Below, one piece after another: positions 10,439 through 47,410 of a stretch of DNA of 64,000 nt (position 1 is the stretch's first letter; every line of letters starts with the position of its first letter). The stretch comes from Sebaldella sp. S0638. GTDB taxonomy: Bacteria; Fusobacteriota; Fusobacteriia; Fusobacteriales; Leptotrichiaceae. Below the pieces are notes generated by a model, which worked only from the letters and a program-made list of their open reading frames with translations, had not been told where the DNA came from and ran no database searches. Position numbers and translations under genes: made by a program. The stretch is taken from the NCBI RefSeq assembly GCF_024158605.1, contig NZ_JAMZGM010000010.1, forward strand, positions 1 to 64,000. Direction: 5' to 3'.

Positions 10439-10708
10439 TTATCTTATATTATTCTCAGCTTTATACTGCTCTATTCTGAATAATAAATCTTCTATTTCCT
10501 GTATTTCAGCTACTTTTTTGTCTATTTGCTTATCCACCTTTGTCAATTCTTTTTCTAGTCTCTGACCGCTGTTTAAGTGCTGTCTCAGATTCGTCCATTT
10601 TCCTCTTGCACCTTCTCTTAATTCTCTTCTGTATTCATATGTCGGAGCTGCGCTTGCCATCATTCCTGCGAATATACATAATAATGCTGTTATTCCTAAT
10701 TTTTTCAT
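10439..10708 (-). CDS. Small secreted coiled-coil protein (89 aa)
   Basis: A Sec signal peptide (MKKLGITALLCIFAGMMASA, cleavage after A-S-A) leads a mature protein of about 69 residues. It contains a basic aromatic segment 'GKWTNLRQHL' and then a strongly helical, heptad-like region. No family is recognised with certainty. It is the third gene of a run of three tiny secreted proteins that share an aromatic-x(3-4)-[YL] motif followed by a helix, resembling the C-terminal part of FadA proteins encoded 2 kb upstream. A role as envelope or adhesin accessory protein is an inference. Confidence 0.65.
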   Translation of the reverse strand: MKKLGITALLCIFAGMMASAAPTYEYRRELREGARGKWTNLRQHLNSGQRLEKELTKVDKQIDKKVAEIQEIEDLLFRIEQYKAENNIR

Positions 10709-35969: not shown

Positions 35970-38900
35970 TTAAAGTCCTGCTCCAAATGATGATGTTCCT
36001 CCGCTGTATTCATACTGTAAATTTTTATCAGGAAAATTAGTTACCCCGAATTTCAGAGTGACTACATTATAGTATCCTAAACCTTTATCTTTCGGCTTAT
36101 CCCACTGTCTTCCCACTCCTATTTCCCATTCCAGATTCTCAAATCTGTGTGATAAAGTAACCAGATTTAATGTCGGCTTATTTACTCTTTTTGCTGCTGA
36201 TGAACTTTCATATTCTTCCGGCTCATCTGATTTTGGTGCCCCGTCCTGTGTATAGTTTAATTTATAACCTATCCACCACGGATTATCAGGATCTTTACTA
36301 AACATATATTTTGTTTCAAACTCGTGCTGTCTGAAGTTATACGAAGAGAATCTCATCGGATCATCTCTTTGGTCTACATCAGGTCTTTCCATATTATACT
36401 TGTATCTGAAATAAAATTTTTCCAGATATCCCACTTCTGCCTTAAACACAATGTCTGTAATCGAGTCAAAGTACCCGTTGGCTGAAGTGTTATCGTGAAA
36501 ATACTGTGAGTCGTTTTCCAGCTCTACACCAAACTCAAAGTATCTTTTATTTTTTCTTTGTGCCTGTAAAATTCTGTCTAGATTATTCAAGTTATACTTA
36601 TCCTGTTTTTCACGTGCATCACTTACAACTGTATCGTATATTGCTTCTTCCTCACGTGAAACAAACAGTTCGTTGCTCTGATATCTGTTAAATAAATCAT
36701 CGCTTGTAAGTCCCGTTGTCTGTAAATCTGTATTTCTCGTCTGTATTACTGATGCTTTATCATTCTCATATCTGTATACAAAGATAATTCTGTTTCCTGC
36801 TCTTTTATCCACATACGTATCATCAGTATAGATCGTCGGCGTATTATTAGGATCTCTGTATTTATCCTTCCCGAATTCAAATGCTACCCTGAAAAAATGA
36901 TTTGATTCAAAAGGTTTCTCTTTCATTCTCGAAGTATCATACACAAAACCTACTCTGTGTCTGTTGCTGTCCAGTTTCAGATCCATCTGGCTTCCGAAAA
37001 CATCGTGGATATTATCTTTTATATTGGCATATTCAAATCCCCACTCGTTATAATTTACTCCAAATACTCTTTCTCTGTTCAGCTCTTTCACAGCGTTTGG
37101 ATCCCAGCCTGCCCATGTGTCGTTTGAGTAGTTTTTATACTGATATTCCTTGTACTTATATTGTACATTATTGTCTTTTTCCGTTTTAAATCCATATATT
37201 ATATTTCTGTTTGTTGTTTCTTCATATTTAAAATCCTCGTAAGGATAGTAATTATTTTTTGAAAAATCAAAACTTATATATCTTTTATCCGCTATACCCA
37301 GTTTTATGTAATTTCTGGTAAAATCCTGCTTTGTCCAGTTGTCTCTCCAGTGTTTATCCATTTGTTTTGTAAAATTATAGTTTAAGTTTACATTCCCGAG
37401 ATACACGTTGAAATCATCATTAAATCTGAAAATATTCGCAGGTGTATTAATTATGTCATTATCACCGTACATCGCATTATGCGCATCAGTAAGCTGGAAA
37501 AACAAAGGCATATTGTTCGTTATTTTTAAATCATATTTATTATCGGAAAATCTGGTATTATCGTATAATGTAGTAAAAAGTCCGAAATCAAATTTATTAA
37601 CCTGTACTGTAGGTTTTTGTGTTATAGCAGCTCCTGTAGAATCTGTAAGTACCTTATACCCGGTTTTTGAGTCAGGATCTTCTATTTTTCTTCTGTCCTC
37701 GTCAAATACAGGAACAGGTGTACTGTCGTATATTCTGCTGTCCATTTCATATCCGAAACTAAAATATGAATTTGGAATCGGAAGATTTATCTTATCATTT
37801 CCAAGTCTTATTGTAGCACCCTGATATTTTTCATAAATAATGTCTCTTACTCTTCTTATGTCTTCACCATCGTCATACAGCTTATAAATTCTGCTGTAAT
37901 CATCCACACCGGGCTGTGTTATATAATTTCTGTAATTCGGGTTATCCGTGGTGTAATCGTACTCATAAGTTTTCTTTTTTATCTCTGATCTGTATATCTG
38001 TCCTCCTACATACAGATTATCCGTCAGATTATTAAATGTATCTTTTCTTTTGTAACCGAAAAAGTCATTTTCTTTCAGCGGATAATAATTTCCAAGAGTA
38101 ACATCATATGTTTTATTATAGTCATATGCTGTTGTTGCTAAAATTCTGTCTGTATAGGTATCAATTGTGTTCGGATCTCCGTAAGCTCTCTGTCTGAGTC
38201 CAAAAATCGGCTGATATTCATCCTGATCAGTCTTACTGTAGGTCAGCTTTATCTTGGGACTTTTTAGATTTATGCTGTATTCATCTGCATTTTTATATGA
38301 ATGAGTATCTCCTATATACCCGGGATTCAGATCTATAAATCTTTCCTTATGCAGGTATAATCCCAGACCGTTATCTTCCTGCTTATAGGTCATTCTTTTG
38401 AAAAGATCCACATCTGTTTTTCTGGGGTCTATATCATCATTCTCTGCTATGTCGTCATTTATTGCTGTTAAAGCTTTCAGAGCATCCATATTCTGGGTCC
38501 AGTAATAGTCCAGATTGAATTCCCCTGACTTCCCTATTTCCTGATCTATTTTAAAATCATAAGTTCCTATATATTTATACTGCTGTTTAAATGACATATA
38601 GTTGTCATCAAGACTTTTTCCGTTTATCGTATACATCTGATTCGTGGTCAGGTTTCTGTAGTTCAGATCCCATACTCCGTACCCCAGCTCATAAAACTTT
38701 CTGTCCTCTGCATTGGGATTTTTCGGTATACTTATAAAATTATGCGACCATGATACATTCCACTCATCTTCATTACCGCTTACCGGCATTACAAATCTCT
38801 TTACGAAAAGGTTTCCCTTATTATTCGGGCTTAATTCGTAATCATTTGAAAATCTAAGTGCCAGTATTTCTTTTGTACTTAATTCAAAATCTACAAATCC

Positions 38901-39554
38901 TTGTAAAAGCTTCCCTTTGTCATAGTCGAATCCCTGAATTACAAAAAGACCTCTGTCAGAATCCCCTCCAACATATGGAAACAGAGTGGCTCTTTGTGTT
39001 TCAGGCTTCAGAGATGTCACATAATAAGGTATGCTTACTATGTCTTTTCCTTTCACATTCAGTGAAACTCCGTGAGCTTCCAGTTTTTTATTTGGAAATA
39101 TAACCAGTTTTTTGGCATTCATTTTATAAGACGGATTGTTATAAGGGCTGGTAGTGAACCATGAATTTTTTATGGTAAACTTTTCCGAACCTTCGCTTAT
39201 AGTCTCTTCTCCACCAAAAATTATTCCTTCTTCAGTAACACTTTTCGAATCTATGATTCTTGCATTTTTAGAGTCTAAATCAAAAATGACCTCTTTAGCG
39301 AGTATCTGACTTGTCCCCTGTGTGTACATAACATTTCCGTATGCAACTATAAGATTCTTATTTTCGAGCTTTTTCATATTATCGGCTCTTATTGTCATGT
39401 CCCCGTATTTAAGGATAATTCCTCCAGATGCTATCATGGATTCATTCTCTATATTTATAATCGATTTTTCTGTTTCTACCTGTATGACTATCTCTTCCGA
39501 GAATAAACTAACCGCCAAAAGAAAAAACGCTAATATTTTATACCTAAGTTTCAT
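35970..39554 (-). CDS. lptD: LPS-assembly outer membrane protein LptD (very large)
   Basis: LptD with LptE inserts lipopolysaccharide into the outer membrane. ATG 39554 follows AGGATAGG and gives a signal peptide ending near SLFS. The N-terminal OstA/jellyroll domain (about residues 20-200) contains 'ADNMKKLENKNLIVAYGN', and the remainder is a long beta barrel, ending in strands with terminal aromatic residues. The protein is about 1194 residues against roughly 780 for E. coli, the extra length lying in long extracellular loops rich in Asp, Asn, Tyr and Lys. The pair of conserved cysteines of enterobacterial LptD is not evident. With RfaE2 it implies lipopolysaccharide. Confidence 0.85.
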   Translation of the reverse strand: MKLRYKILAFFLLAVSLFSEEIVIQVETEKSIINIENESMIASGGIILKYGDMTIRADNMKKLENKNLIVAYGNVMYTQGTSQILAKEVIFDLDSKNARIIDSKSVTEEGIIFGGEETISEGSEKFTIKNSWFTTSPYNNPSYKMNAKKLVIFPNKKLEAHGVSLNVKGKDIVSIPYYVTSLKPETQRATLFPYVGGDSDRGLFVIQGFDYDKGKLLQGFVDFELSTKEILALRFSNDYELSPNNKGNLFVKRFVMPVSGNEDEWNVSWSHNFISIPKNPNAEDRKFYELGYGVWDLNYRNLTTNQMYTINGKSLDDNYMSFKQQYKYIGTYDFKIDQEIGKSGEFNLDYYWTQNMDALKALTAINDDIAENDDIDPRKTDVDLFKRMTYKQEDNGLGLYLHKERFIDLNPGYIGDTHSYKNADEYSINLKSPKIKLTYSKTDQDEYQPIFGLRQRAYGDPNTIDTYTDRILATTAYDYNKTYDVTLGNYYPLKENDFFGYKRKDTFNNLTDNLYVGGQIYRSEIKKKTYEYDYTTDNPNYRNYITQPGVDDYSRIYKLYDDGEDIRRVRDIIYEKYQGATIRLGNDKINLPIPNSYFSFGYEMDSRIYDSTPVPVFDEDRRKIEDPDSKTGYKVLTDSTGAAITQKPTVQVNKFDFGLFTTLYDNTRFSDNKYDLKITNNMPLFFQLTDAHNAMYGDNDIINTPANIFRFNDDFNVYLGNVNLNYNFTKQMDKHWRDNWTKQDFTRNYIKLGIADKRYISFDFSKNNYYPYEDFKYEETTNRNIIYGFKTEKDNNVQYKYKEYQYKNYSNDTWAGWDPNAVKELNRERVFGVNYNEWGFEYANIKDNIHDVFGSQMDLKLDSNRHRVGFVYDTSRMKEKPFESNHFFRVAFEFGKDKYRDPNNTPTIYTDDTYVDKRAGNRIIFVYRYENDKASVIQTRNTDLQTTGLTSDDLFNRYQSNELFVSREEEAIYDTVVSDAREKQDKYNLNNLDRILQAQRKNKRYFEFGVELENDSQYFHDNTSANGYFDSITDIVFKAEVGYLEKFYFRYKYNMERPDVDQRDDPMRFSSYNFRQHEFETKYMFSKDPDNPWWIGYKLNYTQDGAPKSDEPEEYESSSAAKRVNKPTLNLVTLSHRFENLEWEIGVGRQWDKPKDKGLGYYNVVTLKFGVTNFPDKNLQYEYSGGTSSFGAGL

Positions 39555-39727
39555 ATACCTATCCTTATCTAACATGTATAATATTTTTTCCAAATTATAT
39601 CACATTTATTTGCATTTTAATAGTTTCTCTTTACAGTTTTTTTATATATGTATATATTAAATATATTTTATTTTTCTCTTTTTATGGAATATAATACTTT
39701 TTGAAAATAATCCGGGAGGTAAATTTA

Positions 39728-41027: not shown

Positions 41028-41651
41028 TTATTTTTCAACAAAATATCTAAGTACAGTCTTTAATTTTTCCTGTGCTGTTCTTTCAGGATTTGATATGTAT
41101 ATTTCTTTGTGTGCTTTGCTTCTTATCTTTAGTCCGTTTTCCAGACAAAAATCCTTCATTTTTTCAAAACTCGCAGTTTCGCTGTCATAAGAACCAGTAT
41201 GCATCATCTGTACAGCCTGACCATCTTCTATCTCTTCAAACTTTACTTTTTCAACATGTTCAGCTGTTTTTTTCTTTTTCAAAATCTCAGCTGCTGTTTT
41301 TATAACTTGTTCATTTACAAATTCCGGCTGCCTGATCATTATTTTATAAACCAGTTTACTTTTATCCAGCTTTGTTTCATTGGAGTGACTGCCTTTGGCC
41401 AGATCCCATATTCCCTCAAGAGGATATACCGCATAATCAAAATACCCGTCTGGTGTTATTCCCCTTTTGGGAAGCATTTTCAATGTATAAGACAATGAAA
41501 AAAGTGTGCCTGCCAGTTCTGAAAAAAGACTTTCATTGGGATTTCCGCTCCCTTCCAGTGTCAGATACTGAAATTTTTCTATAAATATCAGCTCCGGCTG
41601 TCCTTTTGGCAGATAGATTCCTTTTTCCTGCTTTTTCCAATCATATTTCAT
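41028..41651 (-). CDS. GyrI-like small-molecule-binding protein
   Basis: ATG 41651 has GAGGTG upstream; the frame extends seven codons further. The 207-residue product consists of a GyrI-like domain in the C-terminal half (including 'EIEDGQAVQMMHTGSYDSETASFEKM', cited here by its opening and closing) with an N-terminal segment of similar type. Single GyrI-like proteins lacking a DNA-binding domain are common and may bind lipophilic ligands. No DNA-binding helix-turn-helix is visible. Neighbouring genes give no clue to the ligand. Confidence 0.8.
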   Translation of the reverse strand: MKYDWKKQEKGIYLPKGQPELIFIEKFQYLTLEGSGNPNESLFSELAGTLFSLSYTLKMLPKRGITPDGYFDYAVYPLEGIWDLAKGSHSNETKLDKSKLVYKIMIRQPEFVNEQVIKTAAEILKKKKTAEHVEKVKFEEIEDGQAVQMMHTGSYDSETASFEKMKDFCLENGLKIRSKAHKEIYISNPERTAQEKLKTVLRYFVEK

Positions 41652-41772
41652 AATATCACACCTCTTTGTCATTTCAGTTTATTTATATTTTATCTTCTCT
41701 ATGATGACAACACTGTGTCATATTAATAAATACCCTGAAAGCTAAAAATATGCCTGTCAAACCATTTTCCCG

Positions 41773-42486
41773 TTACTTCTTTACAAAGACAAGGCTGTTC
41801 TCTTCTGAAAGCTTCTTATCGAATTTATACCCTCCAAAACTAATTTCTTTTATTTTTTCTTTTTTAGATATTTTTTGTGTGATTATATGTCTTGCCATTT
41901 CACCTCTTGCTTTTTTGGAATTCGTACTTATCTGAACCGGCTTTCCGTTTTTCATATCAAAAAATTCTATATCTGTAAGCGGTTTTTTTATCATTTTTGA
42001 AAATTCCTTTGAAGCCAGATTTATTATTAAGTCCTCTTTTTCAAAATAATTGCCTATGCTGTTTTTCCAATATTCATAAAGTGATTTTTTATCCAGAACA
42101 GACATAGTCATATCCAGTCTGTAAGGGCGAATTCCTGTAAGAGGCGTCAATACACCGTATAAAGCTGACAGAATCACCATTGTATTTTCCATATATTCAA
42201 TTTCTTTTTTTGAAAAACTTTCTGTATCCAGTGCCTTGAATGCAACACCTGTATAGCTCGCCGCTGCATGGCCGGATTCATTCCCGTAAAAATTATGATA
42301 ACTGTCCAGTATCTCTTCTGTAAGCTTGTCACTCGTTTTCATTATTCTTTTTATGTCCTCTTTTTTCAGATTTTTCAGAATATTTACAAGATTGTCCGTT
42401 TCTTTTTTATACATTATATCTTTTAGCCCAAAACCATTTATTTTCCTGATTTTCTGTGTTTTACTAGGGGATAATATTATCTTCAC
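41773..42486 (-). CDS. yaaA: Peroxide stress protein YaaA
   Basis: The DUF328/YaaA family binds DNA and limits free iron during peroxide stress. Recognisable are the opening 'MKIILSPSKTQK', 'GHAAASYTGVAFKALD' near residue 70, 'LSALYGVLTPLTGIRPYRLDM' near 108 and 'KKARGEMARHII' near 192. The 237 residues are complete. The upstream region contains the two predicted small RNAs read in the opposite direction. Confidence 0.93.
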   Translation of the reverse strand: MKIILSPSKTQKIRKINGFGLKDIMYKKETDNLVNILKNLKKEDIKRIMKTSDKLTEEILDSYHNFYGNESGHAAASYTGVAFKALDTESFSKKEIEYMENTMVILSALYGVLTPLTGIRPYRLDMTMSVLDKKSLYEYWKNSIGNYFEKEDLIINLASKEFSKMIKKPLTDIEFFDMKNGKPVQISTNSKKARGEMARHIITQKISKKEKIKEISFGGYKFDKKLSEENSLVFVKK

Positions 42487-42578
42487 GCTTCACCTCTTTT
42501 TTCTGTTCTCTTTCTGTATATTCTACTACAAATTCAGTTTTTCTTGAAGTATATTTTCATTTGAATGTTCATATTTAA

Positions 42579-42607
42579 TTGACATCAAACATAAAGATGA
42601 ATATAAG
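42579..42607 (+). promoter_or_regulatory. Near-consensus promoter of the first predicted sRNA
   Basis: TTGACA (42579-42584) and TATAAG (42602-42607) with a 17-base spacer, pointing rightwards into a region with no coding frame on that strand. Confidence 0.65.
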
Positions 42608-42610
42608 AAC

Positions 42611-42712
42611 AATCTAAGTTATCAGACTTATAATATTCACATACCAATAAAAGAATATTTTTCTTCATAACCCCCTTAATAGCTGCTGATTTTTTCAGCA
42701 GTTATTTCTTTT
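42611..42712 (+). ncRNA. Predicted small RNA, copy 1
   Basis: The transcript would begin near 42611-42615, about seven bases after a good -10 box, and end at the hairpin AGCTGCTGA-TTTTT-TCAGCAGTT with a T-rich run at 42680-42712. The body contains AATCTAAGTT and the conserved core TTTTTCTTCATAACCCCCTT, which is antisense to a ribosome-binding site followed by ATG-AAG-AAA. A second unit of the same design lies 40 bases downstream. An alternative reading on the minus strand gives a hairpin, an AAGGGGG site and the short frame MKKNILLLV..., so the strand is an inference, favoured by promoter and terminator on plus. It resembles in concept the envelope-targeting sRNAs described in Fusobacterium. 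Confidence 0.5.
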
Positions 42713-42749
42713 TAAGAATCAAAATTAAAATAAAGAATAAAATAAGCGT

Positions 42750-42848
42750 AATCTAAGTTTTTAAGATTATAATTATAGCAAATAAAGAAATAATTTTTTC
42801 TTCATTCTCCCCTTATTAAAAAAGACTGGATCTAGCCGGTCTTTTTTG
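42750..42848 (+). ncRNA. Predicted small RNA, copy 2
   Basis: This unit shares AATCTAAGTTTTTAAGATTA, the core TTTTTTCTTCATTCTCCCCTT and a final hairpin (GACTGG/CCGGTC) with a T run. The first 70 bases align with copy 1, with only one short gap. The hairpin sequence differs from copy 1 but occupies the same place. A weak TAAAAT box is 10 bases upstream, so it may depend on its own weak promoter or on processing. Bases 42789-42805 are perfectly antisense (17 of 17) to the start of the Sel1/TPR gene at 46079. On the minus strand the unit reads as AAGGGGAG then MKKKLFLYLL and stop. Confidence 0.5.
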
Positions 42849-42945
42849 TTTTATGAAAATATATTCTGCTGCATTATGATTTTTCTATTCTGCCTGATTT
42901 CATACTACTCTCCTGTTTTAATATGCTTTCTGAAATTACACATAA

Positions 42946-42978
42946 TAGAAAAAAGAACTGTCCGCAGACAATTCTTTC
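42946..42978 (-). terminator. Terminator of the lipoprotein gene at 43.0 kb
   Basis: Stem AAAGAACTGTC/GACAATTCTTT with a 4-base loop, followed on the minus strand by TTTTCTATTATG. Confidence 0.75.
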
Positions 42979-42996
42979 TTTCTCTTTTATAATTTA

Positions 42997-43398
42997 TTAC
43001 TTAGCTGCTTTAGTTGCTGCATCAGCAAATTCTTGACCTAATTTTTGTATTTCTTCACCGAATTTTTTAGCTTCTTCAGGATCAGTTAATTTTGCACCAA
43101 CTTCTGCTGATTTTGCACCTAATTCTTGGAATTTAGTTGTTAATTCTGTCATTTTTGTTGCATCTTTTGCTTCTATAGCTGCTACGTACTCAGTTAATAA
43201 AGCTTTGTAATCATCAACATACTTTTGTACTTCTGGTTCTTTAAATGTAACTCCGTCAGCTGCTGGTGCATCTTTAGCAGGTTCAGCTGTAGTTTCTGTT
43301 TGTGTTTCTGTTTTTGCATCCTCAGTTTTTGCTTCTTCTTTCTTACCACATGAGAAGATTACTCCTAAAGTTAATAAGACTAATAACATTTTTTTCAT
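42997..43398 (-). CDS. Lipoprotein, Ala/Glu/Lys-rich (133 aa)
   Basis: A lipoprotein signal (MKKMLLVLLTLGVIFSCGKK, cysteine at residue 17) leads a Glu/Lys/Thr-rich low-complexity linker (residues 20-50) and then a helical segment with 'VDDYKALLTEYVAAIEAKD' and 'LTTKFQELGAKSAEVGAKL'. It would be anchored in a membrane as a small helical lipoprotein. No family function is recognised. It has a consensus-like promoter, a strong AGGAGG-type ribosome site and a terminator, consistent with high expression. Confidence 0.75.
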   Translation of the reverse strand: MKKMLLVLLTLGVIFSCGKKEEAKTEDAKTETQTETTAEPAKDAPAADGVTFKEPEVQKYVDDYKALLTEYVAAIEAKDATKMTELTTKFQELGAKSAEVGAKLTDPEEAKKFGEEIQKLGQEFADAATKAAK

Positions 43399-43775
43399 TG
43401 TGTATTACCTCCAAATAATTTTAATTCTAATAACGACAAAATTATATCATAATTAATTATCTATTTCAATGAACTTTTTTAATTATTTTTTTGTGTATAA
43501 ATTTTATTTTTTTCTAAGTAAATAAACGATAAATAAAGCTCTTAGTATTTTTTATGCTGTTATAATTTATTTCTTTGTTTAAAAAATTTTACAGAAATAA
43601 AATATTTTTGGAAAATGTAAAGATGAGAATTTATTTTTCACAATCCATATATAAACATTTTCCGGTATTTTGAAAAGAATTTTCTATATACAAGTTTATA
43701 GTTTCATGTTAAAATATTTATATATAGAGGCTTTTTTTCTATAATTTTCTTTATCTTATTTAAGGAGGAACAATT
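43399..43775. other. Intergenic region between divergent lipoprotein and gpmA genes
   Basis: AT-rich spacer. It holds the lipoprotein promoter on the left and a weaker TTAAAATATTT box ahead of gpmA on the right. No gene was recognised. Confidence 0.4.
43441..43469 (-). promoter_or_regulatory. Promoter of the 133-aa lipoprotein gene
   Basis: TTGAAA (43464-43469) and TATAAT (43441-43446) on the minus strand with a 17-base spacer. Confidence 0.65.
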
Positions 43776-44465
43776 ATGTATTTAGTTTTTATTCGTCACG
43801 GTCAAAGTGAATGGAACAAGGAGAATCTTTTCACAGGCTGGACTGATGTTAATTTATCCGATGAGGGTATAAATGAAGCTATTAAAGCCGGACAGCTGCT
43901 AAAAAAGCACAATTTTACTTTTGACGTGGCTTACACTTCTGTTCTGAAAAGAGCAATTCGTACACTTTATTATGTTTTAAACGAAACTGACCAGCTGTGG
44001 ATACCTGTCCAGAAATCATGGCGTCTGAATGAAAGACACTATGGTGCATTACAAGGGCTTAACAAAGCACAGACAGCAGAAAAATACGGTGAAGAGCAGG
44101 TGCATATATGGCGTAGAAGCTACGATGTACTCCCTCCGCTTTTAGATGAAAATGATGAAAGACAGTCAAAATTCGACAGAAGATACGAAGGATTAGATTC
44201 TCGTGTTCTGCCTTCAGGAGAAAATCTGAAAGTAACACTTGAAAGAGTCATGCCTTACTGGGAAGATGAAATCGCCCCTGCATTAAAATCAGGAAAGAAA
44301 GTAGTTATTGCAGCACACGGAAACAGTCTGCGTGCTTTAGCAAAATATCTCGAGAATATAAGCGATGACGAAATCATGGATTTGGAAATACCTACAGGTA
44401 TTCCTCTTATTTATGAACTTGACGATAATTTTAAAGTTTTAAAAAAATATTATCTTAAAGATTAA
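43776..44465 (+). CDS. gpmA: 2,3-bisphosphoglycerate-dependent phosphoglycerate mutase
   Basis: Interconverts 3- and 2-phosphoglycerate in glycolysis. The catalytic 'RHGQSEWN' with the phospho-accepting histidine spans residues 8-15, '[10 protein letters not shown]' and 'RAIRTL' follow, '[15 protein letters not shown]' is near 86, and '[10 protein letters not shown]' with the second histidine near 183. At 229 residues it is a typical GpmA. Start is ATG 43776 behind AAGGAGG. Single gene with a short 3' spacer before the aldo/keto reductase. Confidence 0.96.
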
Positions 44466-45971: not shown

Positions 45972-46078
45972 ATATAAAAAATTTTAATTATCTGCTGTAT
46001 AATTAAAATTTTTATGATATAATCGAAATGATTATATTTTTTTAAAAATTATATTATAAAAAGGAGATGGTATTTTAT

Positions 46079-47410
46079 ATGAAGAAAAAATTATTGGTAA
46101 TTGCACTTTTATCTATAGTTGCCGTTCCGTCATACAGCGGATGGGAAGTCCTTATAGGACCTGCTGTTGACATAGTTAACACTATAGGTAATAGTATGTC
46201 GAATTCAAAATCTAAAGAAGACAAACCTAAAGAACCTGATTCGGCTACACTGGAGAAAAATGAAAAACGTTATGAGAAAGATCTGAATAATCCGAAGAAA
46301 AAAGAAGCTGCACTAAATGAACTTATTGCAATCAATCTTAAACAAAAAGATATTGAATCTGCTAAAAAATACTACTATATGTTTGATTCAAATAATGTGT
46401 ATACTCCTTTTCTTTCAATAGTAAAAGAATACCGTACGCAGAATAATACTACAGGGCTTGAAGAATTCCTGAAACAGGAACTTTATGCCAAAACCGGTTC
46501 CGGATATGACAGTATACAGCGTGACGCATCATTTCTGCTGGCACAGATTTATATCGGGAAAAATGATTTTGATTCAGCTGCAAATTATTATGAAAAAGCA
46601 ACGAAATTTGATCTTGACCCTGCTGAAGTCTATAATGTATACTGCAAACTTGTGACTCTTGGTTCTTCAGAAAGCAACTCACCAAAGCTTGCCGGCTTTC
46701 TTGTGCAGGAAATAGACTCAAAAACTAATACCAACTATTCAAAAGTCGCAAGAGAAGCATCAGTAAAAATTGTAGATGTATATTTAAAAGCCGGAAACTT
46801 TCAGGAAGCAGATAAATATTATGAAAAAGCAGTAAAAACAGCTACTGACAATGAAAAACGTCTACTTAGCTCTGCAAAAAAGAAAATAGATATTCAAAAA
46901 GAAATAGAAAAACATCTTACAGCAGGAAAAACAGGAAATGCAAAAAGTTATTTTGATCTCGCGAATATTTATTATGAGGAAAATGATAACGAGACAGGTG
47001 ACAAATACCTGATGATGGCTGCTGATAACGGGCATACCCCGTCTATGAAGTACATTGCGCTGGATTATTTTGATGCAGAAGAATACAAACTGGCAGAAAA
47101 ATACTTTAAAATGGCGTCTGATAAAGGAGATGCCGATGCTATGGGAAGTCTTGGTCTTTTATATGAATTTGCCGGAAAAGATACACAAGCCGAAAAATAT
47201 TATAAAATGGCTGCTTCTAAAGGTGATATAAATGCAATGATAGATTTGGCAATCTTATATCAAAATCAGGGAAAAGCACAATCTGCACTAACCTATATCC
47301 AAATGGCAACAAAAAGAGGAGCTGACTACGAAGATATCGGAAGCAGAATGCTTTATCCAAGTAACCGTATGCATGAAAAACTTGCTTTCAGAACTGTAAA
47401 TCTGGATTAA
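46079..47410 (+). CDS. Secreted Sel1/TPR repeat protein
   Basis: ATG 46079 is used because AAGGAG lies 12 bases ahead; a nearer upstream ATG sits within that ribosome site. A signal peptide (MKKKLLVIALLSIVAVPSYS) leads a Lys/Asp/Ser-rich linker and then a mix of TPR-like helices (about residues 60-280) and Sel1-type repeats (from 290, with 'DMANLYYEENDNETGDKY' and 'AMGSLGLLYEFAGKDTQAEKYYKMAA' reduced here to consensus). The repeats form a protein-binding superhelix in the periplasm. The start of the mRNA is complementary over 17 bases to predicted sRNA copy 2. No partner is evident. Confidence 0.85.
   Translation: MKKKLLVIALLSIVAVPSYSGWEVLIGPAVDIVNTIGNSMSNSKSKEDKPKEPDSATLEKNEKRYEKDLNNPKKKEAALNELIAINLKQKDIESAKKYYYMFDSNNVYTPFLSIVKEYRTQNNTTGLEEFLKQELYAKTGSGYDSIQRDASFLLAQIYIGKNDFDSAANYYEKATKFDLDPAEVYNVYCKLVTLGSSESNSPKLAGFLVQEIDSKTNTNYSKVAREASVKIVDVYLKAGNFQEADKYYEKAVKTATDNEKRLLSSAKKKIDIQKEIEKHLTAGKTGNAKSYFDLANIYYEENDNETGDKYLMMAADNGHTPSMKYIALDYFDAEEYKLAEKYFKMASDKGDADAMGSLGLLYEFAGKDTQAEKYYKMAASKGDINAMIDLAILYQNQGKAQSALTYIQMATKRGADYEDIGSRMLYPSNRMHEKLAFRTVNLD

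Follow-up and report, generated by a model that had tools for sequence, protein, structure and literature searches.

A multicopy family of predicted anti-start small RNAs with putative response-regulator-type promoters in Sebaldella and related Leptotrichiaceae

The 64,000-nucleotide stretch of DNA analyzed here (the window) is contig C10 of the 4.27-Mb genome of Sebaldella sp. S0638, and it contains two tandem units that look like small RNA (sRNA) genes on the plus strand. They belong to a bank of about 20 copies whose products are probably anti-start RNAs resembling the csRNAs and LhrC and controlled by an OmpR-type regulator. According to the proposed mechanism, a two-component response regulator of the OmpR/PhoB type would bind tandem half-sites spaced by 11 bp directly upstream of the -10 box, and would thereby turn on the bank of ~73-nt sRNA genes that includes both units at 42594-42852. 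Each RNA would comprise a usually weak 5' stem, a pyrimidine-rich linker with an anti-AUG and an anti-Shine-Dalgarno run, and an intrinsic terminator. The linker may pair in two short blocks over the ribosome-binding site and the first codons, with a bulge in the mRNA spacer. AUG-AAR-AAA starts, which are common in secreted proteins, would be favoured by such linkers, and the pairing would block the translation of many mRNAs. Variety of linkers among the copies would widen the target range, and their number would raise the dose.

The two-unit locus is flanked by yaaA (PF03883) and by a small lipoprotein-like gene that matches no Pfam family, both encoded on the minus strand. On the plus strand each unit shows the order AAG-N8-AAG-N6-CTAAG-N10-TATAAT, followed by a body of ~73 nt with TTTTCTTCAT and a C run, a hairpin and a T run (Table 1). 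The first-pass annotation of this DNA had described two tandem homologous plus-strand units with a conserved TTTTCTTCAT..CCCC(C)TT core, differing hairpins and T runs, and all of this is seen in the sequence; by inspection, the letters of the terminator stems change between units. Its assignment of AATCTAAGTT to the RNA was mistaken, as this element sits upstream of the RNA and holds the last of three AAG promoter half-sites, 10 bp before TATAAT. The shared -10 boxes place the predicted RNA starts near 42641 and 42780. The promoter that had been proposed for the first copy, TTGACA at 42579 combined with TATAAG, was rejected as that of the family, whose common box is TATAAT; the TTGACA is nevertheless kept in the ortholog of unit 1 in another genome (G026) and could mark a second promoter of this unit.

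Table 1. Predicted features of the two-unit locus and possible targets within the window
Feature	Positions	Strand	Remarks
Unit 1 promoter half-sites	42594..42618	+	AAG 42594-42596, AAG 42605-42607, CTAAG 42614-42618; 11-bp register
Unit 1 -10 box TATAAT	42629..42634	+	exactly 10 bp after CTAAG
sRNA W1, ~73 nt	42641..42713	+	predicted 5' end ~7 nt past the -10 box; predicted 3' end in the T run
W1 linker CTTCATAACCCCC	42663..42675	+	anti-AUG-AAG and anti-Shine-Dalgarno
W1 terminator hairpin	42678..42706	+	T run to ~42713
Unit 2 promoter half-sites	42733..42757	+	AAG 42733-42735, AAG 42744-42746, CTAAG 42753-42757
Unit 2 -10 box TATAAT	42768..42773	+	
sRNA W2, ~73 nt	42780..42852	+	predicted ends
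W2 linker CTTCATTCTCCCC	42800..42812	+	
W2 terminator hairpin and T run	42817..42848	+	
Possible target, start of secreted TPR protein	46054..46098	+	ATG 46079 (gene 46079-47410); prediction only
Possible target gene with signal-like start (MKKLGITALLCIFAG)	10439..10708	-	prediction only

Three terminator-like sites were found within 41500-43800, where shuffled sequence would give 0.6, and two of the three are the W1 and W2 hairpins. The predicted folds of W1 and W2 were each better than 200 of 200 shuffles of their own sequence (z -7.1 and -3.7, respectively). Among six units folded, the terminator stem formed in all, the 5' stem in five, and the CAU and the C run were both free in the best fold of four, while in W2 and in the C9 unit part of the CAU or neighbouring bases were paired. 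The opposite reading, in which the minus strand encodes MKK... leader peptides with upstream hairpins, draws on the ATG-AAG-AAA that follows a G run on that strand in many units. However, the minus strand of the units has no conserved reading frame: the frames diverge and are shifted by one-base indels that fall within a block conserved in other respects, several stop after 4 to 11 residues, and several relatives have TTG in place of the start. Moreover, the T runs of both window hairpins and the promoter repeats stand on the plus strand. This alternative, already raised by the first-pass annotation, is rejected as highly improbable.

The promoter repeats form a regular comb. In the 20 units recovered by pattern from the S0638 genome (see below), AAG was present at -44, -33, -22, -11 and 0 relative to the last half-site in 4, 4, 15, 19 and 18 units, respectively, the count at offset 0 being partly fixed by the construction of the pattern. 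At all other offsets over 70 nt it occurred 16 times in the 20 units combined, and shuffling of the upstream letters gave ~0.04 AAG per unit at -22 and at -11. The arrangement AA-N11-TA-N3-T was kept in all 31 aligned units, and the units of one further group (g25) carry three CTAA(G) repeats of equal period ahead of the -10 box. Regulators of the OmpR/PhoB type commonly activate through an 11-bp direct repeat that adjoins the -10 box on its upstream side. The CarR boxes of Fusobacterium nucleatum are AT-rich and without TAAG repeats, and lend no support to the proposed mechanism.

When the S0638 genome was searched with the unit, related stretches appeared on other contigs, and on reading they proved to have this architecture too. 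A pattern combining promoter and core gave 21 matches in the S0638 genome (reversed control: 6), of which 20 are sRNA units distributed over contigs C9, C10 (two), C12 (two), C19, C31 (two), C32 (three), C44 (seven), C59 and C63; the remaining match (C1:50859) was taken as chance. A strict promoter-plus-core pattern gave 17 matches in this genome, more than chance would give, and its reversed control had none in each of 98 genomes of the phylum. A sequence model added one unit (C22:40246), bringing the total to 21, or 22 if C4:21429 is counted. Thus the twin system of two RNAs that had been envisaged is instead a bank of 20 units by pattern, one more by model, and one locus with another body. 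A terminator-like hairpin was listed automatically for 19 of the 20 pattern units, and in the one left unlisted (C44:28186) a hairpin and T run are visible by eye. Three other candidates were set aside: a match of model R3 (described below) at C14:35771 looks coding, and matches of model R2 on C28 and C53 are the opposite strands of starts of secreted-type proteins. When these two starts were considered as possible targets, 11 to 235 of 412 sampled starts paired equally well or better.

Two side observations concern the arrangement of the copies. The locus C4:21429 (L018:1501-1640) combines the family's promoter comb and a terminator-like hairpin plus T run with a different body (UACCCG...UUUACCUUUU), and no preference for translation starts was seen for its linker. 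Four tandem units occupy ~0.9 kb directly upstream of rpsB (L009:14062-15162, equal to G000:C44:27561-28661), and G026 has a cluster of four units as well (G026:C1:85029-85953).

Seven near-identical bodies occur on the single contig C44, as might be expected if the units were dispersed repeats spread by copying without a regulatory role. This reading is highly improbable, since the units are kept across genera with changed terminator letters, most relatives have only one to few copies, and the window pair has an orthologous twin in G026.

The occurrence of the family in other Leptotrichiaceae, for which the first-pass annotation had suggested a search, was confirmed by patterns and by models. 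Strict patterns matched in 8 of the 33 family genomes (reversed control: one match, in G019), and the strict promoter-plus-core pattern in 13 of the 98 phylum genomes (reversed control: 0). Since the RNAalifold consensus of alignment A1 contained no base pair, the models R1-R3 describe sequence only; R1 was not used. Model R2, built from 42 units of Sebaldella, G003, G004, G021, G022 and the g25 genomes, recovered units in further genera; its tally at E<=0.05 (94 of 98 genomes) was mostly noise and was discarded. Eighteen R2 loci were read individually. In g6 genomes, which we take to be Leptotrichia on the basis of the named records matched (see below), the units consist of GACCAATAGAAAAAGTGAAAACTTTTTTCTTCA[A/T] with ACTCC and a terminator, and TATAAT is preceded at 10 bp by TAAG or TAAT. 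The G062 locus, one of the 18, holds no such unit.

For the family-wide tally we applied model R3, derived from 31 units, at E<=1e-11. It matched 27 of 33 family genomes, 11 of which had contributed no training sequence, though several of these are congeneric with training genomes. No match at this threshold was found in G001, G019, G020, G023 (82% complete), G027 and G028. Five of the eight g25 genomes match R3 at 2e-7 to 2e-6, two of these being in the training set. At E<=1e-3, copy numbers were 21 in S0638 (including the coding-looking C14 match, and without C22 and C4), 14 in G024, 10 in G025 and 19 in G026, while the remaining family genomes with matches have 1 to 5. A scan of named genome records yielded 12 loci. 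Eight belong to Fusobacteriales, with Leptotrichia hongkongensis and L. sp. oral taxon 879 among them; the four in records outside this order were taken as chance. No unit was found in the viral contigs searched. Rfam 15 at gathering score has no family match in the window and reported only a tRNA in five further stretches (L168, L170, L071, L090 and L009). Searches of an open-access library for Leptotrichia, Leptotrichiaceae and Sebaldella likewise turned up no description of RNAs of this kind. The family is thus apparently undescribed, and the earlier proposal of an undescribed plus-strand sRNA with a core directed against ribosome sites is supported.

Outside the family, eight sites with weak R3 matches in six f2 genomes were read, the matches in G033 and G089 being left out of this reading. 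Six of them (G039, two in G040, G046, G077 and G035) look like MKK-type gene starts read on the opposite strand, and the two in G068 look coding; all were rejected as units. The weak Fusobacteriaceae matches (L265, L267, L268, L266, L269, L270) give the impression that what the model picks up is the complement of a translation start.

The linkers fall into several types, with CUUCAU or UUUUCAU as the anti-AUG block or, in some, CUUCAA directed against UUG, combined with CCCCC (W1 and others) or CUCC (other copies). The first-pass annotation had held the core to be the complement of the starts of many signal-peptide genes. For the contiguous motif this does not hold. In the S0638 genome the contiguous target AGGRG-N0-5-ATGAAGAAAAA, which covers the CUUCAU type (AUG-AAG), occurs at no gene start, and all 14 matches are the sRNA genes themselves. 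Across four genomes of the genus the same motif gave 43 matches, of which 41 were taken as sRNA units by position, with one other each in G024 and G026. For comparison with real genes, we sampled the window plus 400 kb of the genome (413 called genes, 412 used). Of the 250 sampled genes that have GGAG, 225 carry it at a distance of 5-10 nt from the start, a rough figure because the start caller favours a Shine-Dalgarno spacing of ~7. The corresponding spacing in the linkers is ~1-4, and therefore pairing with genes would have to proceed in two blocks with a bulge.

Such interrupted pairing prefers translation starts for most linkers. For all six linkers compared, pairing was better at the 412 starts than inside genes, although this contrast is rough, as interiors differ in composition. 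Against 40 shuffled linkers on the 412 starts, the mean was reached by none for W1, C63 and C32, by one for C12, two for W2 and six for the Leptotrichia linker. In a second comparison, with 60 shuffles and 200 of the 412 genes, the mean was reached by none for C12a, C63, C59 and C31a, one for C31b and C32, three for W1 and W2, four for C9, eight for C4 and 18 for C19; the C19 and C4 linkers accordingly have no preference for starts in this sample. By the count of strong pairs, W1 was reached by 11 of 60 shuffles. In a sample of 255 G010 genes (280 kb), the linker of that genome surpassed 60 of 60 shuffles and the CAA variant 56 of 60; the Leptotrichia CAA linker is thus weak, its mean being reached by four of 60 shuffles on G010 and by six of 40 on the Sebaldella starts.

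The proposed envelope targeting is partly supported. The signal-like genes, defined by a simple hydropathy rule (80 of 412), paired better on average with all six linkers (rank-sum p 0.0016 to 6e-10, uncorrected), and within genes starting Met-Lys this advantage holds for four of the six. Enrichment of signal-like genes in the best 41 of 412, however, reached p<0.05 (uncorrected) only for W2, C63, C32 and the Leptotrichia linker, and was not significant for W1 (p 0.40) and C12 (p 0.15). Within the window, the W2 linker is predicted to form a duplex of -22.5 kcal/mol with the start at 46079, the fourth best of the 412 sampled starts for W2; the minus-strand gene at 10439-10708 likewise ranks with the best predictions. 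As a separate observation, the window encodes at 35973-39593 (minus strand) a 1207-residue protein with a Pfam LptD_N match; this length is long for an LPS assembly protein.

The CUCCUU of the linkers resembles the anti-Shine-Dalgarno end of 16S rRNA. The RNAs might accordingly act chiefly on protein or ribosomes, the linker mimicking the 16S rRNA 3' end or titrating an RNA-binding protein and the copies serving as dose. The lack of contiguous targets and the near-identical bodies of the C44 copies and W1 fit with this possibility. We consider it unlikely, because anti-start blocks are kept beside the C run while varying as AUG-AAG, AUG-AAA and UUG types, and because most linkers pair better with real starts than shuffled linkers do. 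Repression at translation starts is the reading that we prefer.

If a single OmpR-type regulator serves all units, the best candidate for the activator is the one encoded on contig C47, whose gene is followed by a histidine kinase gene. The S0638 genome has eight OmpR-type regulators, and the finished genome G021, which also has the sRNA, has five. In a tree of 38 of the 44 matched domains (four of G087 and two of G026 were left out, and all eight plus five were included), as we read it, these two genomes share only the C47 and C7 orthologous groups. C7 as universal activator was rejected, as 11 of the 33 family genomes have no match to it at E<=1e-60, among them the four g11 genomes, in which the sRNA is present, so that C47 is left by elimination. 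The C47 regulator turned up in 31 of the 33, with identities of 73-100%, and none of the 27 genomes with the sRNA is missing it; G019 and G020 are without it at E<=1e-60, and both are also without the sRNA.

There is nonetheless a sizeable chance, if less than even, that another activator is responsible, be it different OmpR-type regulators per genus, another activator class or an alternative sigma factor. C47 is present in four genomes without detected sRNA (G001, G023, G027 and G028), and its recognition helix has only 3 of 13 residues identical to CiaR, while that of C16 has 7 of 13, the highest among the S0638 regulators. On the other hand, C47 and C7 are the only groups common to S0638 and G021, C7 being absent from the sRNA-bearing G029-G032, and the extended TATAAT box argues against a promoter of the sigma-E type. 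Two observations on C7-type regulators were made in passing. In G014 the gene (G014:C1:1010707-1011363) has an in-frame TAA, in that genome alone among 22 matches. Another (L116:1489-2169) has an unusual receiver domain, starting with MKILIFNSNEKSRL, and adjoins genes for a P-loop ATPase, by eye Mrp-like, and for a superoxide-dismutase-like protein.

Among known systems, the closest is that of the csRNAs of the streptococcal CiaRH regulon. In the portions of PMC3091779 and PMC8186281 available to us, several sRNA genes share one promoter type and carry, between two stem-loops, an unpaired region complementary to the Shine-Dalgarno sequence and start codon, mostly CAU with some anti-GUG and anti-UUG. 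The csRNA finder of PMC3091779 uses TTTAAG-N5-TTTAAG, ten bases to TATAAT, and a start seven bases downstream. The comb described here has the same 11-bp register, AAG ends and 10-bp spacing to TATAAT as these CiaR promoters, and in the units, too, a TATAAT-like box follows the repeat after ten bases, with a terminator further on. They differ in having NNAAG upstream and CTAAG proximal with three or more half-sites, in contrast to NTTAAG-N5-TTTAAG, and the csRNAs belong to another phylum, with at most six genes per surveyed genome as given in those portions. Since the repeat letters differ, we do not class the units as csRNAs.

Compared by description only, the LhrC1-5 RNAs of Listeria are also multicopy, are controlled by LisRK and block the Shine-Dalgarno site through a CU-rich single-stranded stretch (PMC4132741, accessible part); multiple copies with a CU-rich unpaired stretch are found here as well. 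LhrC differs in having five copies, three CU-rich sites per RNA and, in the accessible part of that source, no stated LisR consensus, and it too comes from another phylum. FoxI and FoxJ of Fusobacterium nucleatum, to which the first-pass annotation had likened the window units, come from the same phylum and have a C-stretch seed against envelope-protein mRNAs; a cytosine stretch is present here as CCCCC in W1 and others and as CUCC elsewhere. Placing the units in the FoxI class is not supported, however: PMC11005410 reports FoxI and FoxJ as sigma-E dependent, whereas the promoter found here is an 11-bp repeat with TATAAT, and describes them with FoxJ of ~156 nt and two distinct sRNAs rather than a paralogous bank.

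With a family in 27 of 33 genomes and ~21 units in one genus, the question of why bacteria multiply sRNA genes becomes approachable, as does the question whether one promoter geometry is recruited again and again by two-component systems to drive anti-start RNAs. The FopS RNAs of Bacteroides, again compared by description, form a large paralogous bank that binds near start codons. In contrast to the units here, they number 12 to 15 in each genome, have canonical sigma-ABfr promoters, target SusC and come from another phylum (PMC11697453, as far as its accessible text describes). FopS is the largest of the comparable families considered here, and the 21-22 copies counted in S0638 exceed it. In a more speculative reading, which is less likely than not to be correct, ~20 anti-start RNAs under one response regulator would be the largest trans-acting paralogous sRNA bank seen. 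It would act as a tunable brake on the translation of secreted proteins, its linkers having diversified (anti-AUG-AAG, anti-AUG-AAA and anti-UUG; CCCCC or CUCC). Its base-exact sharing of promoter geometry with the CiaR-csRNA system may have arisen by convergence or from an old regulator-sRNA module common to Firmicutes and Fusobacteriota.
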